From Polaromonas sp. (GTDB lineage Bacteria; Pseudomonadota; Gammaproteobacteria; Burkholderiales; Burkholderiaceae_C), in the NCBI GenBank assembly GCA_030654695.1, contig JAURWY010000029.1:62001-126000 (forward strand): a stretch of 64,000 nt of DNA. Reading direction: 5' to 3'. This document shows, piece after piece, positions 45,937 to 63,541 of the stretch (positions within the stretch are counted from its first letter, which is position 1; each line of letters starts with the position of its first letter). The translations under genes and the position numbers were made by a program. Below the pieces are notes generated by a model, which was not told the origin of the DNA, did not search any database, and saw only the letters and a list, made by a program, of their open reading frames with translations.

Positions 45937-48900
45937 TTACATATTCCGCCGGTACTGCCCGCCGACTTCAAACAGCGCGTTGGTGATCTGCCCGAGCGAG
46001 CAGACGCGAACCGCGTCCATCAGCACGTCAAACACATTCTTGTTTTCAATCACTGCTTGTTGCAGGCGCTTGAGCATGGCTGGTGCTGCGTCGGCGTGCA
46101 GGGTGTGAAAGGCTTCTAGGCGCTGCAACTGGCTTTGTTTTTCGGCTTCGGTGGAGCGGGCCAGTTCTAGCTTGTCTTGCACTTTGTCACCGTGCGGATT
46201 ACGGAAGGTGTTGACGCCGATGATGGGTAGCTCTCCTGTGTGTTTGAGCATTTCGTAGTGCATGGATTCGTCTTGAATCCGGCCGCGCTGGTAGCCGGTT
46301 TCCATGGCTCCGAGTACGCCGCCGCGTTCGGCGATGCGTTCAAACTCCAGCAGCACGGCTTCTTCTAGCAACTCCGTCAGCTCTTCGATGATGAAGGCGC
46401 CTTGCGACGGATTTTCGGTTTTAGCCAAACCCCACTCGCGGTTGATGATGAGCTGAATCGCCATGGCTCGACGCACCGACTCCTGGGTCGGCGTGGTGAT
46501 GGCTTCGTCAAAGGCGTTGGTATGCAGGCTGTTGCAGTTGTCGTAAATCGCGATCAGCGCTTGCAGCGTGGTGCGGATGTCGTTGAACTGAATCTCTTGC
46601 GCGTGCAGGCTGCGGCCACTGGTTTGAATGTGGTATTTCAGCTTTTGACTGCGCTCGTTGGCGCCGTATTTTTCCTTCATGGCGACGGCCCAGATGCGGC
46701 GCGCAACGCGGCCCATCACCGTGTATTCCGCGTCCATGCCGTTGCTGAAGAAGAAGCTCAGGTTCGGTGCAAAGTCATCGATGTGCATGCCGCGCGCCAA
46801 GTACGCTTCGACAAAGGTGAAACCGTTGCTGAGCGTGAAAGCCAGCTGGCTGATCGGGTTGGCGCCGGCCTCGGCAATGTGATAACCGCTGATCGAGACG
46901 CTGTAGAAATTGCGTACCTTGTGGTGCACAAAATACTCGGCGATGTCACCCATCACTTTGAGTGAAAACTCAGTTGAAAAGATGCAGGTGTTTTGCCCCT
47001 GGTCTTCTTTCAAGATGTCGGCTTGCACTGTGCCGCGCACATTTTCTTGCACCCATTCGCGGATTTTGGCTGTCTCTGTGTCGGTCGGCTCACGGCCGTT
47101 GTCGAGTTTGAATTTGTCTAAGTTCTGGTCGATGGCGGTGTTCATGAACATGGCCAAAATGCTGGGCGCCGGGCCGTTGATGGTCATGCTGACGCTGGTG
47201 GCGGGGTTGCACAAATCAAAGCCGCTGTAGAGAACTTTCATGTCGTCCAGCGTGGCGATGCTGACGCCCGAGTTGCCGACCTTGCCGTAGATGTCGGGCC
47301 GCACATCGGGATCGTTGCCGTAGAGCGTGACCGAGTCAAAAGCGGTGCTCAGACGCTTGGCCGGCATGCCTTCGCTGAGCAGTTTGAAGCGGGTGTTGGT
47401 CCGAAAGGCGTCGCCTTCGCCGGCGAACATGCGGGTCGGGTCTTCACCTTCACGTTTGAAGGCGAAGGTGCCGGCGGTGTAAGGGTAGCTGCCGGGCACG
47501 TTGTCGAGCATCAGCCACTTCAAAATTTCGCCGTGGTCTTCGTACTTTGGCAACGTGACTTTGCGGATGGTCGTGCCGCTTAGTGTTTTGGTGGTGAGTG
47601 CCGTGCGGATTTCTTTGTCGCGGATTTTCACCACGTACTCGTCGCCGGCGTAGGCGGCTTGCATGTCTGGCCATTGGCCCAGCAGATGCCGCGCATCGGC
47701 GTCCATGCGCGCTTTGCGGTGACCCGCCAAGTCGAGTGCTGCTTCGGCTGCTGGCGCGCGCCCGGGCTTGTCGATTTTCAGCATAGCGGCGGCAGCTTGG
47801 AGTTGCTGCACTTCACGCGCCAGTTGTGCTTGCGCCAACGTGCGTTTTTTATAGCCGCGCACGGTGTCGCTGATTTCCGCCAAGTAACGGGTGCGCGCCG
47901 CTGGCACCACCGGTGTTTGGTTGGTGCTGTGGCGCACCAACACGTGGGGCAAAATCCCGTCCTTCAACGTCAAGCCCAGAGACTGCAAACGCGGTTTGAG
48001 GGCTTGGTACAACGCCGTCACGCCGTCGTCATTGAAGCGCGCGGCCATGGTGCCAAAGACCGGCATCTGCTCGGTCGGTGTGGTCCAGGCTTCTTTGTTG
48101 CGCTGCACTTGCTTGGCAACATCGCGCAGTGCGTCTAGCGAGCCTTTGCGGTCAAACTTGTTGATGGCGATGAACTCGGCAAAGTCCAGCATGTCGATTT
48201 TTTCTAGCTGGCTGGCCGCGCCAAACTCTGGCGTCATCACGTACATCGGCACGTTCACATGCGGGACGATGGCCGCGTCCCCCTGGCCGATGCCCGAGGT
48301 CTCCACCACGATGACATCGAAACCAGCGACCTTGCAAGCGGCGATCACATCGGGCAAGGCCTTGCTGATTTCCGAGCCGAAATCACGCGTGGCCAAGCTG
48401 CGCATGAAGACGCGTTGGCCTGAGTCCTTGCTGAGTGCATTGGTTTTCCAAGGGCTGATGGCATTCATGCGAATCCGGTCGCCCAGCAAGGCGCCGCCGC
48501 TTTTACGCCGACTCGGGTCAATGCTGATGACGGCGATGCGCAGGCTGTCGCCTTGGTCCAGCCGCAGGCGACGGATCAACTCATCTGTGAGGGACGACTT
48601 GCCAGCACCGCCCGTGCCGGTGATGCCCAGCACCGGCACTTGGCAGGTGGCGGCTTGCTGCCGAATTTCATTGACCAAAGAGGCATTGGCTTGGTCGTTT
48701 TCCAGCGCCGTGATGAGCTGAGCCAGCGCGCGCCAGTTCATTTCGCCGTGGCCTTGGATGGCTTTGAATTCTTTGGGTGCAAAGCTGGTGAGGTCTTTGT
48801 CGCAGCGCATGACCATCTCGCCGATCATGCCGGCGAGGCCCATTCTTTGGCCGTCTTCCGGGCTGAAAATATGCGTCACGCCGTAGGCATGGAGCTCGCG

Positions 48901-49251
48901 GATTTCGGGCGGCACGATGACGCCACCGCCGCCGCCAAAGACCTGAATGTGCTCGCCGCCCCGGCTCTTGAGTAAATCCACCATGTACTTGAAGTACTCA
49001 ACGTGGCCGCCTTGGTAAGAGCTGATGGCGATGCCTTGCGCGTCTTCTTGCAGGGCTGCGGTGACGACTTCGTCGACGCTGCGGTTGTGGCCCAAGTGGA
49101 TCACCTCGGCACCCATGCCTTGCAAGATGCGCCGCATGATGTTGATGGCCGCGTCATGCCCGTCAAACAGCGATGCTGCGGTGACAAAGCGCACCTTGTG
49201 GGTCGGGCGATAGTTGGCAAGGGCTTGGTAGTCTGCGTACAAATCGGTCAT
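45937..49251 (-). CDS. icmF: Fused isobutyryl-CoA mutase IcmF
   Basis: Adenosylcobalamin enzyme of 1104 residues that interconverts isobutyryl-CoA and n-butyryl-CoA (some members isomerise other acyl-CoAs). Domain order is the IcmF hallmark: an N-terminal B12-binding domain (about 15-145, with D30 and H32 of the DxHxxG motif), a MeaI-like GTPase chaperone (P-loop GTGGAGKSS at 212-220), and a C-terminal mutase barrel ([27 protein letters not shown]). The sixth position of the B12 motif is Ala35, not Gly. ATG 49251 matches the normal N-terminus. A LiuR-type palindrome lies upstream. Confidence 0.95.
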
Positions 49252-49287
49252 GGATATCTTTCGCAAAAATCGGGTGTGCCTTCTGGC

Positions 49288-49316
49288 TTTTAACTTGACG
49301 TTGACGTTAACGTCAA
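49288..49316 (-). promoter_or_regulatory. icmF promoter with LiuR-type palindrome
   Basis: TTGACGTTAACGTCAA (49301-49316) is a perfect 16-bp palindrome, and an extra TTGACG half-site precedes it at 49295-49300. On the minus strand TTGACG serves as a -35, with a 17-base spacer and a TTAAAA -10 (49293-49288). The palindrome therefore overlaps the promoter. It closely resembles sites described for the MerR-family regulator LiuR of branched-chain amino acid degradation; no liuR gene is in the window. Confidence 0.6.
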
Positions 49317-49334
49317 TCTTACCGTTTCTGCATG

Positions 49335-49358
49335 AAAAAGGGCGCTCGCGCGCCCTTT
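49335..49358 (-). terminator. Terminator of the first TakP-like TRAP operon
   Basis: On the minus strand AAAGGGCGC pairs with GCGCCCTTT around a 4-base loop (49358-49337), and the T-run continues to 49335. It lies 24 bases after the long DctM stop. Confidence 0.85.
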
Positions 49359-49381
49359 CCAATCAGCACGAAGCAATGACT

Positions 49382-59397: not shown

Positions 59398-60288
59398 ATG
59401 CTCTTTAAAATCTCATCTGTCCGCCCATCATCTATGTTGCCCATGCTCGGCCTTTTCAAGTTAATGCGCCCGCACCAGTGGCTCAAAAACGTTTTTGTTT
59501 TTGCCGGCCTGTTGTTCAGTGAAAACTGGCGCAACCCTGCGCTCATCCATCACGTCCTTGTCGCCTTCGCGGCGTTTTGCTGCGTGTCCAGCATGGTCTA
59601 TATCGTCAACGACTGGCTCGATCGCCATGCCGATGCCGAGCACCCAAGCAAGCGTTTTCGCCCGCTTGCCAGTGGGCAGGTGACGCTCCCGCAGGCCGCC
59701 ATCTTGGGGCTGGCGTTGCTGGTCGCGGGCGTCTGGCTTGCTGCAGGCAACAAGGTATTGCTGACACTGCTGGCGCTGTACATCGCGCTCAATGTGGCTT
59801 ATTCGTTGAAGCTCAAACGGGTGCCGGTGGTCGACGTCGGCGTCATCGCTTCCGGCTTCATGATTCGCCTGCTCGCGGGGACGCTGGCGGTGGGCATTGC
59901 ACCGTCGCGCTGGTTGCTGCTCACGGGCTTGTTTGTGGCGCTGTTTCTCGGCTTTTCCAAACGCAAGGCCGAAACCTTTCATGACCTGGCCAGCCAGCGT
60001 GCCGTGTTGGCGGATTACCCGCCGGCGCTGTTAGACAGCTTCATGGCTGTCACCATGACCGCCACCATCATCACCTACAGTTTGTTTGCCACCAGCCCCG
60101 AAGCGCAGGGCATGCACGGTGAACGCCTGATTTACACCGTGCCCTTTGTCATCTTCGGCTTGCTGCGTTACGCCTACCAAGTGCACCGCGGCAAAGGTGA
60201 AGACGTGGCGCGCGATCTGGTGCGCGACCCGTGGACCTTGGCTGCTGGCGTGGCTTGGCTGCTGGTGTTTTTCGGATTTCTCTGGTGA
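59398..60288 (+). CDS. UbiA-family prenyltransferase, decaprenyl-phosphate phosphoribosyltransferase-like
   Basis: Membrane enzyme of 296 residues. Instead of the ubiquinone-type UbiA pattern it has DPPR-synthase features: RPHQWLKNVFVFAGLLF, VNDWLDRHADAEHPSKRFRPLASG (NDxxDxxxD motif with KRxRPL), and a second conserved loop ending LGFSKRKAE. In mycobacteria this enzyme (Rv3806c) joins phosphoribosyl pyrophosphate to decaprenyl phosphate. The likely product is polyprenyl-phosphoryl-5-phosphoribose. The start is uncertain (59398, 59434 or 59443). First gene of a four-gene run. Confidence 0.88.
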   Translation: MLFKISSVRPSSMLPMLGLFKLMRPHQWLKNVFVFAGLLFSENWRNPALIHHVLVAFAAFCCVSSMVYIVNDWLDRHADAEHPSKRFRPLASGQVTLPQAAILGLALLVAGVWLAAGNKVLLTLLALYIALNVAYSLKLKRVPVVDVGVIASGFMIRLLAGTLAVGIAPSRWLLLTGLFVALFLGFSKRKAETFHDLASQRAVLADYPPALLDSFMAVTMTATIITYSLFATSPEAQGMHGERLIYTVPFVIFGLLRYAYQVHRGKGEDVARDLVRDPWTLAAGVAWLLVFFGFLW

Positions 60289-61256
60289 GTCCGTTGCGGG
60301 CTGAACAGCCAGCACCGCGTCTGTCCCTCAAAAAGCTCTTGCTGGTGTTAGGGCTGGTGGCAACTGCCTATGCCGCTGCACTGACATTTTTTGGAGAGGC
60401 GTCGCCTGCTGTTGCTCTCAATGGATTGTTCTCCCTCACCGGGCTGGCGGCTGCCGCGCTGTGTCTGCTGAACTACCTGCTGCGCGGCTTGCGCTGGCGT
60501 GGCTGGATGGCGCACTACCAGCGTCCGTTTGGTGTGCTGGAGGGCTTGCGCCTGTATGTCGCCGGCTACGCGCTCACGCCCACGCCCGGCAACGTGGGCG
60601 AGGCCGTGCGCGGGCTGTGGCTGGTGCGCCAGCCCTTGAGTACGGCGCAAAGTCTGGCGATTTTTGGCGCGGAGCGCTTGGCCGATTTACTCTGCCTCAT
60701 GCTCATGGCCTTGCCTGCGCTGGGCTGGCTGTGGTGGCACAGCACTCAGGGTGTGACGGCTTGGGGTCTTGGCTTTTGGGGCTGGAGCGCTGGCTTGTTG
60801 GCAGTCGCTGCGGTGGGCGTGCTGGGGGTTTTTCTGGCTGCGCGCCGCATCGTTCGTCAGCCGCGTTGGGCTGAGCGTCTGGCTTGGTTGCAGGAGGCTT
60901 GGCATTGCTTAGCCCATCAACCGTGGCGCTGGCTGGCGCTGACGCTGGCGGCTTGGGCAGCACAAGGCTTGGCGGTAGCGCTGTTGTGCCGAGCCGCTGG
61001 TCTGGACACCGCGACGTGGCTGGCCGCCGGTTTTTATGCATTGGCCATGGTGGGCGGTGCATTGTCTGCCTTGCCCGCCGGACTGGGCGGTACCGAAGCC
61101 GTGTTGGTGGCGCTGCTGGTCGGGCAGGGTGCAGCCGTTGGCGCTGCCGTGGCGGTGACGGTGCTGGTGCGTTTGCTGACGCTTTGGTTGGCCGTGGCTC
61201 TGGGCTTGTTGGCTCTGCTTTACAGTGTGGCCATTCGCAAAGACATCCGTTTTTAA
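60285..61256 (+). CDS. LPG-synthase-TM/YbhN-like membrane protein (flippase-like)
   Basis: Polytopic inner-membrane protein of 323 residues with the lysylphosphatidylglycerol-synthase TM domain (PF03706), which has no transferase part here. GYALTPTPGNVGEAVRGLWLV and AERLADLLCLM are diagnostic, and the C-terminal SALPAGLGGTEAVLVALLV segment is also conserved. Such stand-alone proteins are proposed lipid or polyprenyl-sugar flippases. I use GTG 60285, overlapping the previous stop by 4 bases; an earlier start would overlap the UbiA gene by about 57 bases. The cluster suggests it flips a polyprenyl-phosphate sugar. Confidence 0.86.
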   Translation: MSPLRAEQPAPRLSLKKLLLVLGLVATAYAAALTFFGEASPAVALNGLFSLTGLAAAALCLLNYLLRGLRWRGWMAHYQRPFGVLEGLRLYVAGYALTPTPGNVGEAVRGLWLVRQPLSTAQSLAIFGAERLADLLCLMLMALPALGWLWWHSTQGVTAWGLGFWGWSAGLLAVAAVGVLGVFLAARRIVRQPRWAERLAWLQEAWHCLAHQPWRWLALTLAAWAAQGLAVALLCRAAGLDTATWLAAGFYALAMVGGALSALPAGLGGTEAVLVALLVGQGAAVGAAVAVTVLVRLLTLWLAVALGLLALLYSVAIRKDIRF

Positions 61257-61265
61257 CTTCTCGTC

Positions 61266-62846
61266 ATGAACTCCACTTCTGCTTCCACGCCGTCCGGCTT
61301 TGCAACGTCAGCCCACCCAGACTTTCAAGGCGACTTTAAGGGTGGATTGATGCGCTGGCTGCTGGCCGTCGGGCTGGCTTCGCTGGCCTTGCGGCTGTGG
61401 ATTGCCGTGGTTTTCCCCATCACCGGAGACGAGGCTTTTTTCTACTGGTGGGGCGTCTACAAAGACTGGGGCTACTACGACCACCCGCCGATGGTCGGCT
61501 GGCTGATCGGCCTGATGCGCGATGTCTTTGGCGACTCGCTCTGGGCCATTCGCCTGCCTGCTGTGTTGCTGCCGCTGGCTTTGGGCGCCGTGCTGGGTTG
61601 GGCGCTGCAGCCGGTGGCCGGGCAACGCGCTGGTTGGGCCGTGCTGTTCTTTTGGCTGGCTCCCATCAACTGGCTCAACGTGCTCATCACCACCGACACG
61701 CCTTTGATGTTCTGGTCGATGTTGTCGGTGGCCGCCATGCTGCGCGCCGAACTGCGACCGCGCTTGGACGCTGCAGCGCGTGGCCTCTACGCGCTGTCGG
61801 GTGTGTTTCTGGGTTGCGCCTTTTTGTCCAAGTACTTTTCTGTGGTGCTCGGGCTGACGTATTTGGTCTACTTCGCGTTCTACCGGCGAAACCGCTGGCA
61901 GGGACTCGTGCTGGTGGTGCTATGCGCCTTGCCCGGCCCGGCCATCAACATCGCCTGGAACATGGACCACGGCTGGTCGAACATCATGTTCAACGTCTTC
62001 AACCGCAACGAAGACGACCACTTTGAGCTGCGCAAACCCTTCATGTACCTCGGCATGATGCTGTACCTCGCCAGCCCGGCGGCGGTCTGGCTGGGTTGGA
62101 AGCACCGGCAGGCGCTACGCAGCACCGCCGTGCAGCACCGACTGCTGGCGTCTTTGGTGCTGGTGCCGCTGGCCTTTTTTGCGCTGCTGTCTTTTAAGAA
62201 AGTCATCGGCCTGCACTGGGTGCTGTCGTTTTACCCCTTCGGTTTTGCGCTGCTGGCGCTGGCCTTGCCGGCTGAACGGCTCAAAGCCTGCGCTCTCGGC
62301 TTGGCGGTGTTTGCCGGGCTGCATGTGTTGGTGGTGGCCGGCATCGGCATGAGCTCGCCCGCCGACTGGAAAAAAGCCTCGCTTTACCCGAGCATCGTGC
62401 GCAGCTTTGACGCCCAAGCGATTTTGAAGCAGGTTGATGCGCCGGGCGTCGTGCTCATGGCTGACGCTTACACGCCAGCCTCAATCTATGGTTTTGAACT
62501 GGGCCGCTACGTGCCGGTGTTTGGCCCGGGCCGCTTTCATGCGCGGCAAGACGACATGTTGGTCGATTTCTCGCTGTACCAAGGCAAGACCGTTCGCATC
62601 ATCCACGGCGGCCAGCCCGACTTGGCCAACTACCGGCCTTATTTTGACGCGGTCAATGTCCGTCCGATTGAGCAAAGCGGTGTGACGTTTTACGTGGTCG
62701 AAGGGCAGGGCTTTAACTTCATGGCCTATCGCGACGGCGTGTTGGCGACGATTTTCAAGCGCTACTACAACATCCCCACTTGGCTGCCCATGACCGGTTG
62801 CCCGTTTTGTGAACGCTATTGCGGCGAGGTGCGATGCCCGCGCTAG
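61266..62846 (+). CDS. GT39/ArnT-like glycosyltransferase
   Basis: GT-C-type membrane glycosyltransferase of 526 residues. The first periplasmic loop has the catalytic acidic motif in GDEAFFYWWGVYKDWGYYDHPPMVGW, and the N-terminal half has about ten hydrophobic helices. A soluble C-terminal part (about 400-526) follows. Family members (ArnT, protein mannosyltransferases) use a polyprenyl-phosphate sugar donor in the periplasm. Downstream of the UbiA and flippase-like genes, this points to transfer of a polyprenyl-phosphate pentose. The acceptor is unknown. Confidence 0.92.
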   Translation: MNSTSASTPSGFATSAHPDFQGDFKGGLMRWLLAVGLASLALRLWIAVVFPITGDEAFFYWWGVYKDWGYYDHPPMVGWLIGLMRDVFGDSLWAIRLPAVLLPLALGAVLGWALQPVAGQRAGWAVLFFWLAPINWLNVLITTDTPLMFWSMLSVAAMLRAELRPRLDAAARGLYALSGVFLGCAFLSKYFSVVLGLTYLVYFAFYRRNRWQGLVLVVLCALPGPAINIAWNMDHGWSNIMFNVFNRNEDDHFELRKPFMYLGMMLYLASPAAVWLGWKHRQALRSTAVQHRLLASLVLVPLAFFALLSFKKVIGLHWVLSFYPFGFALLALALPAERLKACALGLAVFAGLHVLVVAGIGMSSPADWKKASLYPSIVRSFDAQAILKQVDAPGVVLMADAYTPASIYGFELGRYVPVFGPGRFHARQDDMLVDFSLYQGKTVRIIHGGQPDLANYRPYFDAVNVRPIEQSGVTFYVVEGQGFNFMAYRDGVLATIFKRYYNIPTWLPMTGCPFCERYCGEVRCPR

Positions 62847-63541
62847 AAAAGCCAGGCCAGCACGCTCAAAGCGACATTTGCGTGGCGGCGTTTGACTTTG
62901 ACGGCACCCTCACGCACGGCGACACCTTGCTGCCTTTTCTGGCCACCGCGCTGGGCTGGCCGCGTTTTGCGTGGGCGCTGCTGCGCAGCAGTCCGTGGTT
63001 GCTCGGCCATGCGCTGCGGTTGGTGCGCAACGACATCGCCAAGGCGCGCTTGTTCAAGGCCGCCTTGCAAGGCGTGCTCGTGGCCGATGTGCAGCGCTGG
63101 GCCGAACGCTGGGCCAGCGAACAATTACCGGGGCAGTTGCGGGGCGATCAAGACCCGACCATGGCCCGTCTTGCATGGCACCAAACTCAAGGGCACTGCT
63201 GCGTCATGGTCAGCGCCTCACCCGATATTTACCTTCAGCGGGCGGCTCAGCTTTTGGGCTTCGACGGCCTGATCTGCACGCAGATGGAAGTCGAACGCAA
63301 AGAGCCGGAACTCACAGGGCAGGGCTTGCAAGTTGCTGAACAACTCAGCGGCCGCATGAAAACACCGAACTGCCATGGCCAACAAAAAGTCATCCGCTTG
63401 CAAGCTTGGCTGGCCGAGCGCTACGACCCAGCCACATTGGCCAGCATGACGCTCTATGCGTATGGCGACACCTCCGGCGACAAACCGATGCTGCGCATGG
63501 CACAAAAAGCTTGGTATCGCGGCAAGCCGTTTGTGGGTTGA
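62834..63541 (+). CDS. HAD-IB family phosphatase
   Basis: Phosphatase of 235 residues with HAD motifs: AAFDFDGTLTHGDTL (D21 nucleophile, D23 acid/base), VMVSASPDIYLQ (motif II), a lysine in QQKVIRL, and AYGDTSGDKPML (acidic motif). This subclass is related to phosphoserine phosphatase. In the context of a DPPR-synthase-like gene, removal of the 5-phosphate from a polyprenyl-phosphoryl-phosphoribose is a natural reaction, but it is inferred. It overlaps the GT39 gene by 13 bases. No more genes follow on this strand. Confidence 0.9.
   Translation: MPALEKPGQHAQSDICVAAFDFDGTLTHGDTLLPFLATALGWPRFAWALLRSSPWLLGHALRLVRNDIAKARLFKAALQGVLVADVQRWAERWASEQLPGQLRGDQDPTMARLAWHQTQGHCCVMVSASPDIYLQRAAQLLGFDGLICTQMEVERKEPELTGQGLQVAEQLSGRMKTPNCHGQQKVIRLQAWLAERYDPATLASMTLYAYGDTSGDKPMLRMAQKAWYRGKPFVG

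Follow-up and report, generated by a model that had tools for sequence, protein, structure and literature searches.

The decaprenyl-phosphoryl-arabinose pathway of mycobacteria has a first enzyme of the Rv3806c family, the enzymes DprE1 and DprE2, an Rv3807c-type phosphatase, a small proposed transporter (Rv3789) and GT-C transferases that use the lipid-linked pentofuranose donor. The noe genes of Azorhizobium reportedly supply a pentofuranose donor through a related synthase. In Citrobacter youngae, a fused HAD–UbiA protein makes polyprenyl-phosphate ribofuranose from phosphoribosyl pyrophosphate, a GT-C enzyme attaches the pentofuranose residue, and a small MATE-type flippase has been proposed, as set out in the main text of Kelly et al. 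(2024; PMC11127046). A polyprenyl phosphoribose synthase and a GT-C enzyme also occur in another Gram-negative bacterium, Pseudomonas paraeruginosa (PSPA7_6245–6251 and TfpW), where, in the accounts of PMC11127046 and PMC12369383, the sugar is D-arabinofuranose, the acceptor is pilin and the transferase gene lies in a pilin cassette. Here, we describe a cassette of four genes in a 64,000-nucleotide window of Polaromonas sp. (GCA_030654695.1, contig JAURWY010000029.1, positions 62,001–126,000 of the forward strand; all coordinates refer to the window). The genes encode a UbiA-family protein, an LPG_synthase_TM membrane protein (called the carrier below), a glycosyltransferase (GT) and a HAD-family hydrolase, and we consider it likely that together they form an extracytoplasmic pentofuranosylation set.

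The cassette resembles the C. youngae O1/O2 system (ORF15, ORF14 and ORF12) in combining a UbiA-type synthase and a HAD phosphatase with a flippase candidate and a GT-C transferase, and in O1, as we propose for the window, ribofuranose is added and there is no epimerase (PMC11127046). The HAD and UbiA domains are fused in Citrobacter, however, whereas the HAD protein of the window is free-standing, belongs to the HAD-IB group and can be related to the phosphoribose phosphatase (PRP) domain of Kelly et al. at the family level only. The Citrobacter flippase is a small four-helix MATE protein, whereas the window has an LPG_synthase_TM protein in its place; ORF12 founds family GT136, whereas the window transferase is PMT_2/ArnT-like, a distinction drawn by description only; and window-type cassettes, unlike the Citrobacter system, were found both outside and near O-antigen loci. 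Compared to the mycobacterial pathway, the cassette shares the family of the first enzyme, the kind of donor and the class of transferase but has a HAD protein as its phosphatase candidate, an LPG_synthase_TM protein as its carrier candidate and no DprE1 that we could find. The P. paraeruginosa system is set apart by description, in its sugar, acceptor and gene location. The carrier fold is that of MprF, YbhN and GpgF (PF03706), whose known or proposed substrates are glycerophospholipids, whereas the window's subfamily is tied to polyprenyl-phosphate pentofuranose synthases; GpgF of P. aeruginosa is described as a predicted flippase whose gene shares an operon with that of an enzyme producing a glycolipid (PMC12713373).

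By analogy with Rv3806c and Citrobacter ORF15, the UbiA protein would make polyprenyl-phosphate ribose-5-phosphate. The HAD protein would strip the 5′-phosphate to give undecaprenyl-phosphate ribofuranose, a role suggested by its family, catalytic residues and gene linkage and by HAD–UbiA fusions in relatives. The LPG_synthase_TM protein, judging from its fold and the clade-specific link to synthases, would bring the lipid-bound ribose over to the periplasmic leaflet, where the ArnT-like GT-C enzyme would transfer ribofuranose to a periplasmic acceptor. A first-pass annotation of the window had proposed that the cluster makes, dephosphorylates, flips and transfers a ribofuranosyl unit. That scheme, favored by the synthase family, the gene order and the DprE1 search, was right in kind, although we infer the flipping, the sugar and the acceptor. 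With a prototype in print (Kelly et al., 2024; PMC11127046), the system can count as new only in part. The annotation also knew of no description of the gene set in Comamonadaceae. The pathway type has been in print since 2024, though the main text of PMC11127046 contains none of the strings ‘Comamon’, ‘Burkholder’, ‘LPG’, ‘GT39’ or ‘Azorhizobium’. Among the new findings, the strongest are the synthase-linked carrier subfamily and an epimerase-free transferase clade.

The UbiA protein (Pfam PF01040) scored 249.5 bits against the NCBIfam decaprenyl-phosphate phosphoribosyltransferase model NF008977 (cut-off 234) and 220.3 bits against NF008978 (cut-off 207), passing both, and 159.9 bits against NF008976, below its cut-off of 474. 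Scores against ubiA_proteo (28 bits) and cyoE_ctaB (43 bits) were far below the NCBIfam cut-offs, and a PDB sequence search returned only 8j8j and 8j8k, both decaprenyl-phosphate phosphoribosyltransferases; these results rule out a quinone or haem prenyltransferase and uphold the first-pass call of a decaprenyl-phosphate phosphoribosyltransferase. The 8j8j enzyme reportedly has a published structure paper of its own. Kelly et al. (2024) assign 8j8j to Mycobacterium tuberculosis and name NDxxDxxxD and RxxE as active-site residues (PMC11127046). The window protein has all of these (N71, D72, D75, D79, R189 and E192), with a spacing equal to that of Citrobacter ORF15 (N247, D248, D251, D255, R366 and E369). 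The NDxxDxxxD plus KRxRPL pattern of the first-pass annotation corresponds to NDWLDRHAD (residue 71) and KRFRPLAS (residue 85). Across 68 UbiA sequences, N71, D72, D79, R88, P89 and R189 were invariant, D75 was kept in 67 and E192 in 62. Family scores and conserved residues thus support a predicted Rv3806c-type polyprenyl-phosphate phosphoribosyltransferase. The genome has two further UbiA-family genes (L001 and L002), which are separate matches and form a very long-branched outgroup of the UbiA tree; the tree is not itself a test against quinone or haem enzymes. An apparent long N-terminal UbiA extension in L091, L093 and L117 (cluster c39) was judged by eye to be an open antisense frame and rejected.

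The cassette was widely kept among relatives. A UbiA homolog (E ≤ 1e-20) was present in 28 of the 61 genomes searched, and an orthologue with 66–100% identity in 25 of 37 genus genomes, own genome included. Among 78 distinct UbiA loci, 70 were close (≥250 bits); 15 of the 70 were cut by contig ends and 55 were uncut. The order UbiA–LPG–GT–HAD, whose conservation in relatives had been suggested as a check, was kept in 45 of the 55, and the other ten comprised five with UbiA–GT only, one UbiA–GT–HAD, one GT–UbiA and three without a linked HAD gene. Eleven of the 12 genus genomes without an orthologue (completeness 70–100%) had no UbiA match and one, G028, had a 35% match; none of the 12 had a carrier homolog (E ≤ 1e-5) or a close GT, the best GT score being 58 bits compared to 816 bits in a positive relative, G024. 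UbiA, carrier and transferase are all-or-none within the genus. Rubrivivax/Rhizobacter-type loci (L085, L089, L093, L100 and L118) have UbiA and GT genes with no linked carrier or HAD gene. A 395-residue minus-strand frame in L130 was set aside, with plausible MsrP-/MsrQ-like genes seen by eye on the opposite strand.

For comparison beyond close relatives we used a class-wide sample, in which 64 of 369 genomes, own genome included, matched the synthase family at E ≤ 1e-40, and fetched neighborhoods from 40 of the other 63, mostly chosen for single-domain enzymes. The carrier matched PF03706 at 139.9 bits (cut-off 33.4) and TIGR00374 at 43.5 bits, barely above the cut-off of 43.2, and is the only PF03706 match in its genome. 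Its structural model (mean predicted local distance difference test score, pLDDT, 84.4) gave four PDB structure matches at E ≤ 0.001, all MprF, with TM-scores of 0.57–0.60. In favor of a carrier role, the P. aeruginosa form of MprF is able to scramble numerous lipids in vitro (PMC11980842). The carrier motif is TPTPGNVGE; TxTPGKxGE is shared by all synthase-linked PF03706 proteins from beyond the window's group (9 of 9), and 3 of the 34 unlinked proteins have it too. PF03706 proteins occurred in 28 of the 40 sampled genomes, at 38 places, and by match coordinates a copy lay within 600 bases of the synthase in nine genomes, including one on the opposite strand (G265) and one beside the second half of a split UbiA gene (G301). 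In a PF03706 tree of 52 rows, built by a quick method, one clade (SH-aLRT 99) held all 20 synthase-linked rows, the window's carrier among them, and 3 of 32 unlinked rows; the other 29, many of them long-branched, fell outside. The three unlinked members (G394:C7, G095:C33 and G299:C15; L216–L218) come from genomes with a synthase and DprE1/DprE2-like genes elsewhere, and there the carrier gene lies beside no recognized pathway gene. A 4-base overlap between UbiA and the second gene was seen in 58 of 67 listed loci, a list that holds some contigs twice and has script-chosen start codons. In titles and the opening parts of abstracts, supplements aside, we found no paper tying PF03706 proteins to pentofuranose donors.

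The GT matched Pfam PMT_2/PMT families (PF13231, 61.9 bits, cut-off 26.1; also PF02366) and was the sole PMT_2 match in its genome. A PDB sequence search with the GT returned no match, but its model (pLDDT 88.5) was closest in fold to ArnT (5f15/5ezm; TM-score 0.60, 15% identity), 5f15 being ArnT of Cupriavidus metallidurans bound to undecaprenyl phosphate. Pmt4 and oligosaccharyltransferases followed at E ≤ 0.001, with weaker matches to the arabinofuranosyltransferases AftB (E 0.0017), AftD (0.0086) and AftA (0.23). The modeled fold leads us to propose a GT-C enzyme that draws on a lipid-linked donor. The first-pass name GT39 is only a loose label, the Pfam family being PMT_2 and the closest solved fold that of ArnT. 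The motifs GDEA and DHPP were invariant in 22 sequences. In the GT tree, which leaves out the long-branched L149 and has L142 unlabelled (no DprE gene within its fetched stretch), 20 rows from loci without DprE1/DprE2-like genes, including the window, formed one clade (bootstrap 95, SH-aLRT 93), with DprE linkage judged over the fetched stretches and not over the whole G056, G039 and G167 genomes. This clade includes GTs encoded with HAD–UbiA proteins in L065 and in L177, a locus from another genus of the window organism's family, where the GT is orthologous and an ArnE/ArnF-like small transporter is also encoded (below the NCBIfam cut-offs for those names, above Pfam's for EamA and Multi_Drug_Res). 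The L177 and L065 synthases sit on a different branch of the UbiA tree from the window's synthase, so that two different donor modules, each lacking a linked epimerase, serve a single GT clade. A Cys-rich C-terminal GT tail, GCPFCERYCGxVRCP, characterizes the window's group (window 62800–62846), is only partly kept in L177 and L065, and does not occur in that form in L143 or L146, which are DprE-linked (alignment A1). AZOBR_p60025, on which we found no paper, is a weak match of the L065 GT (27.8 bits, cut-off 150).

The HAD protein scored 135.1 bits against PF12710 (cut-off 27) in the frame read from 62819, and 121.5 bits against TIGR01490 (HAD-IB; cut-off 98.3), and a PDB search by sequence gave no match. 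It carries DFDGT at residue 21 and GDTSGD at residue 211, and the catalytic-motif Asp was invariant in 43 sequences. On these features we propose that it is the 5′-phosphatase of polyprenyl-phosphate ribose-5-phosphate. In several Curvibacter/Hylemonella-type loci (L076:9325–10014 and similar), a PAP2 phosphatase gene lies directly 5′ of UbiA, after an LptF/LptG-type gene; its product could be a second pathway phosphatase or unrelated.

Synthases in the class-wide sample were either single enzymes of ~300 residues or longer forms of ~490 residues, and the longer forms that were scanned were HAD–UbiA proteins. DprE1 and DprE2 probes scored 450.7 and 175.1 bits against NCBIfam cut-offs of 500 and 250, respectively, and the genes are therefore named DprE1-like and DprE2-like. 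A DprE1-like gene lay within 6 kb of the synthase in 28 of the 40 fetched loci; most of the sample is thus of the arabinose type, and loci like the window's are in the minority. In four distant gammaproteobacterial loci (L143, L144, L146 and L149), GT, DprE1-like, DprE2-like, HAD, UbiA and LPG_synthase_TM genes occur together, the L149 GT being a weak 113-bit homolog on the other strand. L176 has all members of this six-gene set except the carrier, with its UbiA gene split across contigs, and a second contig (L212) has a carrier gene beside the remaining UbiA match. The four complete sets offer a link, separate from the window, between its four families and the chemistry of lipid-linked pentofuranoses. 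As a separate observation, Prevotella-type Bacteroidota loci (L124–L127) have a synthase gene followed by a HAD-like gene, with no window-type carrier or GT.

We give about even weight to a more specific proposal: that an MprF-type subfamily with the motif TxTPG[K/N]xGE is a dedicated polyprenyl-phosphate pentofuranose carrier in Gammaproteobacteria, replacing the GtrA, SMR or MATE proteins put forward for other systems, and that this subfamily and a single ArnT-like transferase clade belong to a ribofuranosylation cassette gained or lost as a unit, the epimerase-free branch of a six-gene arabinose-type cassette. Several observations weigh against the pathway as drawn. Carrier and HAD are not always linked, because the carrier is missing at the five uncut UbiA–GT loci and the UbiA–GT–HAD locus, and L055, L058 and L059 lack a linked HAD gene (the L058 GT match spans two frames). 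Free-standing HAD proteins and the HAD parts of fusions are alike only at the family level; a profile from the window-group HADs scored 25.5 bits on the L065 fusion, and the Pfam HAD score in L177 was 37 bits. Of ten genomes with a GT beside the synthase but no PF03706 gene linked to it, eight carry a copy elsewhere and two have none at all; the unlinked copies belong to other subfamilies, those in the tree lying outside the linked clade. The carrier could instead be a general lipid scramblase or homeostasis protein, with another protein flipping undecaprenyl-phosphate ribose, a smaller but real chance in our estimate. Carrier-free UbiA–GT loci fit this alternative, as does the occurrence, at other loci, of GtrA or ArnE/ArnF-like proteins beside the synthase; E. 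coli YbhN has also been considered as a possible transporter of bulk lipids (PMC11980842). It does not account so readily for the frequent overlap of carrier and UbiA genes, the nearby PF03706 copies in nine sampled genomes, the separation of linked from unlinked proteins in the tree, or a genome whose only PF03706 gene is in the cassette. GtrA and an LPG-type carrier were found together in one genome only (G197), and the numbers are too small to claim complementary occurrence.

The donor is probably polyprenyl-phosphate ribofuranose. The ALO domain had no match in own genome, with a positive control in Corynebacterium glutamicum, and a DprE1-like query (L143; 1023 bits to itself) gave only a 35-bit FAD-oxidase match there and 32–38 bits or nothing in six same-genus genomes; with no DprE1 found in the genome, the donor sugar should stay ribose. 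Seven FAD_binding_4 matches considered as DprE1 candidates were set aside, looking by eye like glycolate/lactate-type oxidases and MurB. No DprE2 gene lies within the cassette, a genome-wide DprE2 search not having been made, and the first-pass suggestion of a ribose donor for a run without a DprE1/DprE2 epimerase agrees with the negative ALO and DprE1 searches. A final sugar that is another pentofuranose such as xylofuranose, formed by an unlinked short-chain dehydrogenase/reductase (SDR) epimerase, seems to us rather unlikely. In Citrobacter O2 one SDR epimerase alone turns ribose to xylose (PMC11127046), SDRs are common, and an unlinked xylose-type SDR epimerase was not searched for; yet no epimerase gene was recognized between the adjacent genes of the 45 full-order loci, and most sampled loci do have a linked epimerase, as the distribution of DprE1-like genes shows. 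By comparison, a cassette-free genome of the same genus (G028; L064, 7652–11436) has HAD–UbiA, GtrA, DprE1-like and DprE2-like genes, an arabinose-type donor set. The evidence on the acceptor is gene neighborhood, a further point against the full scheme, and it points weakly to LPS (lipopolysaccharide) O-antigen, or some other polysaccharide of the cell surface, as the most probable one. A Wzz-type and then an RmlB-type gene start ~3 kb past the cassette in five relatives (L039, L052, L059, L070 and L075), and rmlB and rmlD directly follow the HAD gene in L106 and L110 (families checked in L075 and L110, other loci assigned by cluster membership); own genome has a ManC-type gene in the ~3 kb slot, and the cassette follows the LptF/LptG-type and PAP2 genes in several Curvibacter/Hylemonella-type loci. 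That the same donor pathway serves a protein such as type IV pilin, like the TfpW pilin arabinosylation of P. paraeruginosa, is unlikely in view of these Wzz/rml neighbors. Pilin arabinosylation is the other well-described Gram-negative use of such donors (PMC12369383), and PilM–P-like genes, named by eye, lie ~10 kb downstream in own genome, but unrelated genes stand between them and the cassette.

The cassette genes are listed in Table 1. Their coordinates agree with the first-pass layout of four same-strand genes with overlaps of 4 and 13 bases and a gap of 9 bases: the carrier starts at a GTG (60285) in a GTGA overlap with the UbiA stop, 9 bases separate carrier and GT, and the HAD gene starts at an ATG (62834) within a 13-base overlap with GT. 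The true UbiA start may be Met16 (59443), as the alignments of most relatives, the nearest lake group excepted, begin only at about residue 4–23.

Table 1. Genes of the cassette, with predicted or proposed functions.
Feature	Coordinates	Strand	Basis
UbiA-family polyprenyl-phosphate phosphoribosyltransferase, Rv3806c type (predicted)	59398..60288	+	NCBIfam, PDB sequence search, conserved residues
LPG_synthase_TM (MprF-type transport domain), proposed carrier of polyprenyl-phosphate ribose	60285..61256	+	PF03706, fold, phylogeny
GT-C glycosyltransferase (PMT_2, ArnT-like fold), proposed ribofuranosyltransferase	61266..62846	+	Pfam, model fold
HAD-IB family hydrolase, proposed 5′-phosphatase of polyprenyl-phosphate ribose-5-phosphate	62834..63541	+	PF12710, TIGR01490, catalytic motif

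By Pfam, genes for a rhodanese, a type III pantothenate kinase, a PHA_gran_rgn protein and a glyoxalase lie 5′ of the cassette, and a TPR protein is encoded 3′ of it on the opposite strand; the 29 window open reading frames scanned, a subset of the total, included no further pathway-like gene. Elsewhere in the window, a single frame at 45937–49362 (−) has B12-binding, MeaB and methylmalonyl-CoA mutase domains, an arrangement known from IcmF-type fused acyl-CoA mutases.

The proposed carrier would be a third, structurally different type, tied to the synthase by operon and phylogeny, and an assay of scrambling in vitro already exists for its fold. Setting the six-gene form beside the four-gene form gives a natural comparison between arabinose and ribose donors. 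From the cassette one would expect a surface glycan decorated with ribofuranose in many genomes of Polaromonas, Curvibacter and Hylemonella.

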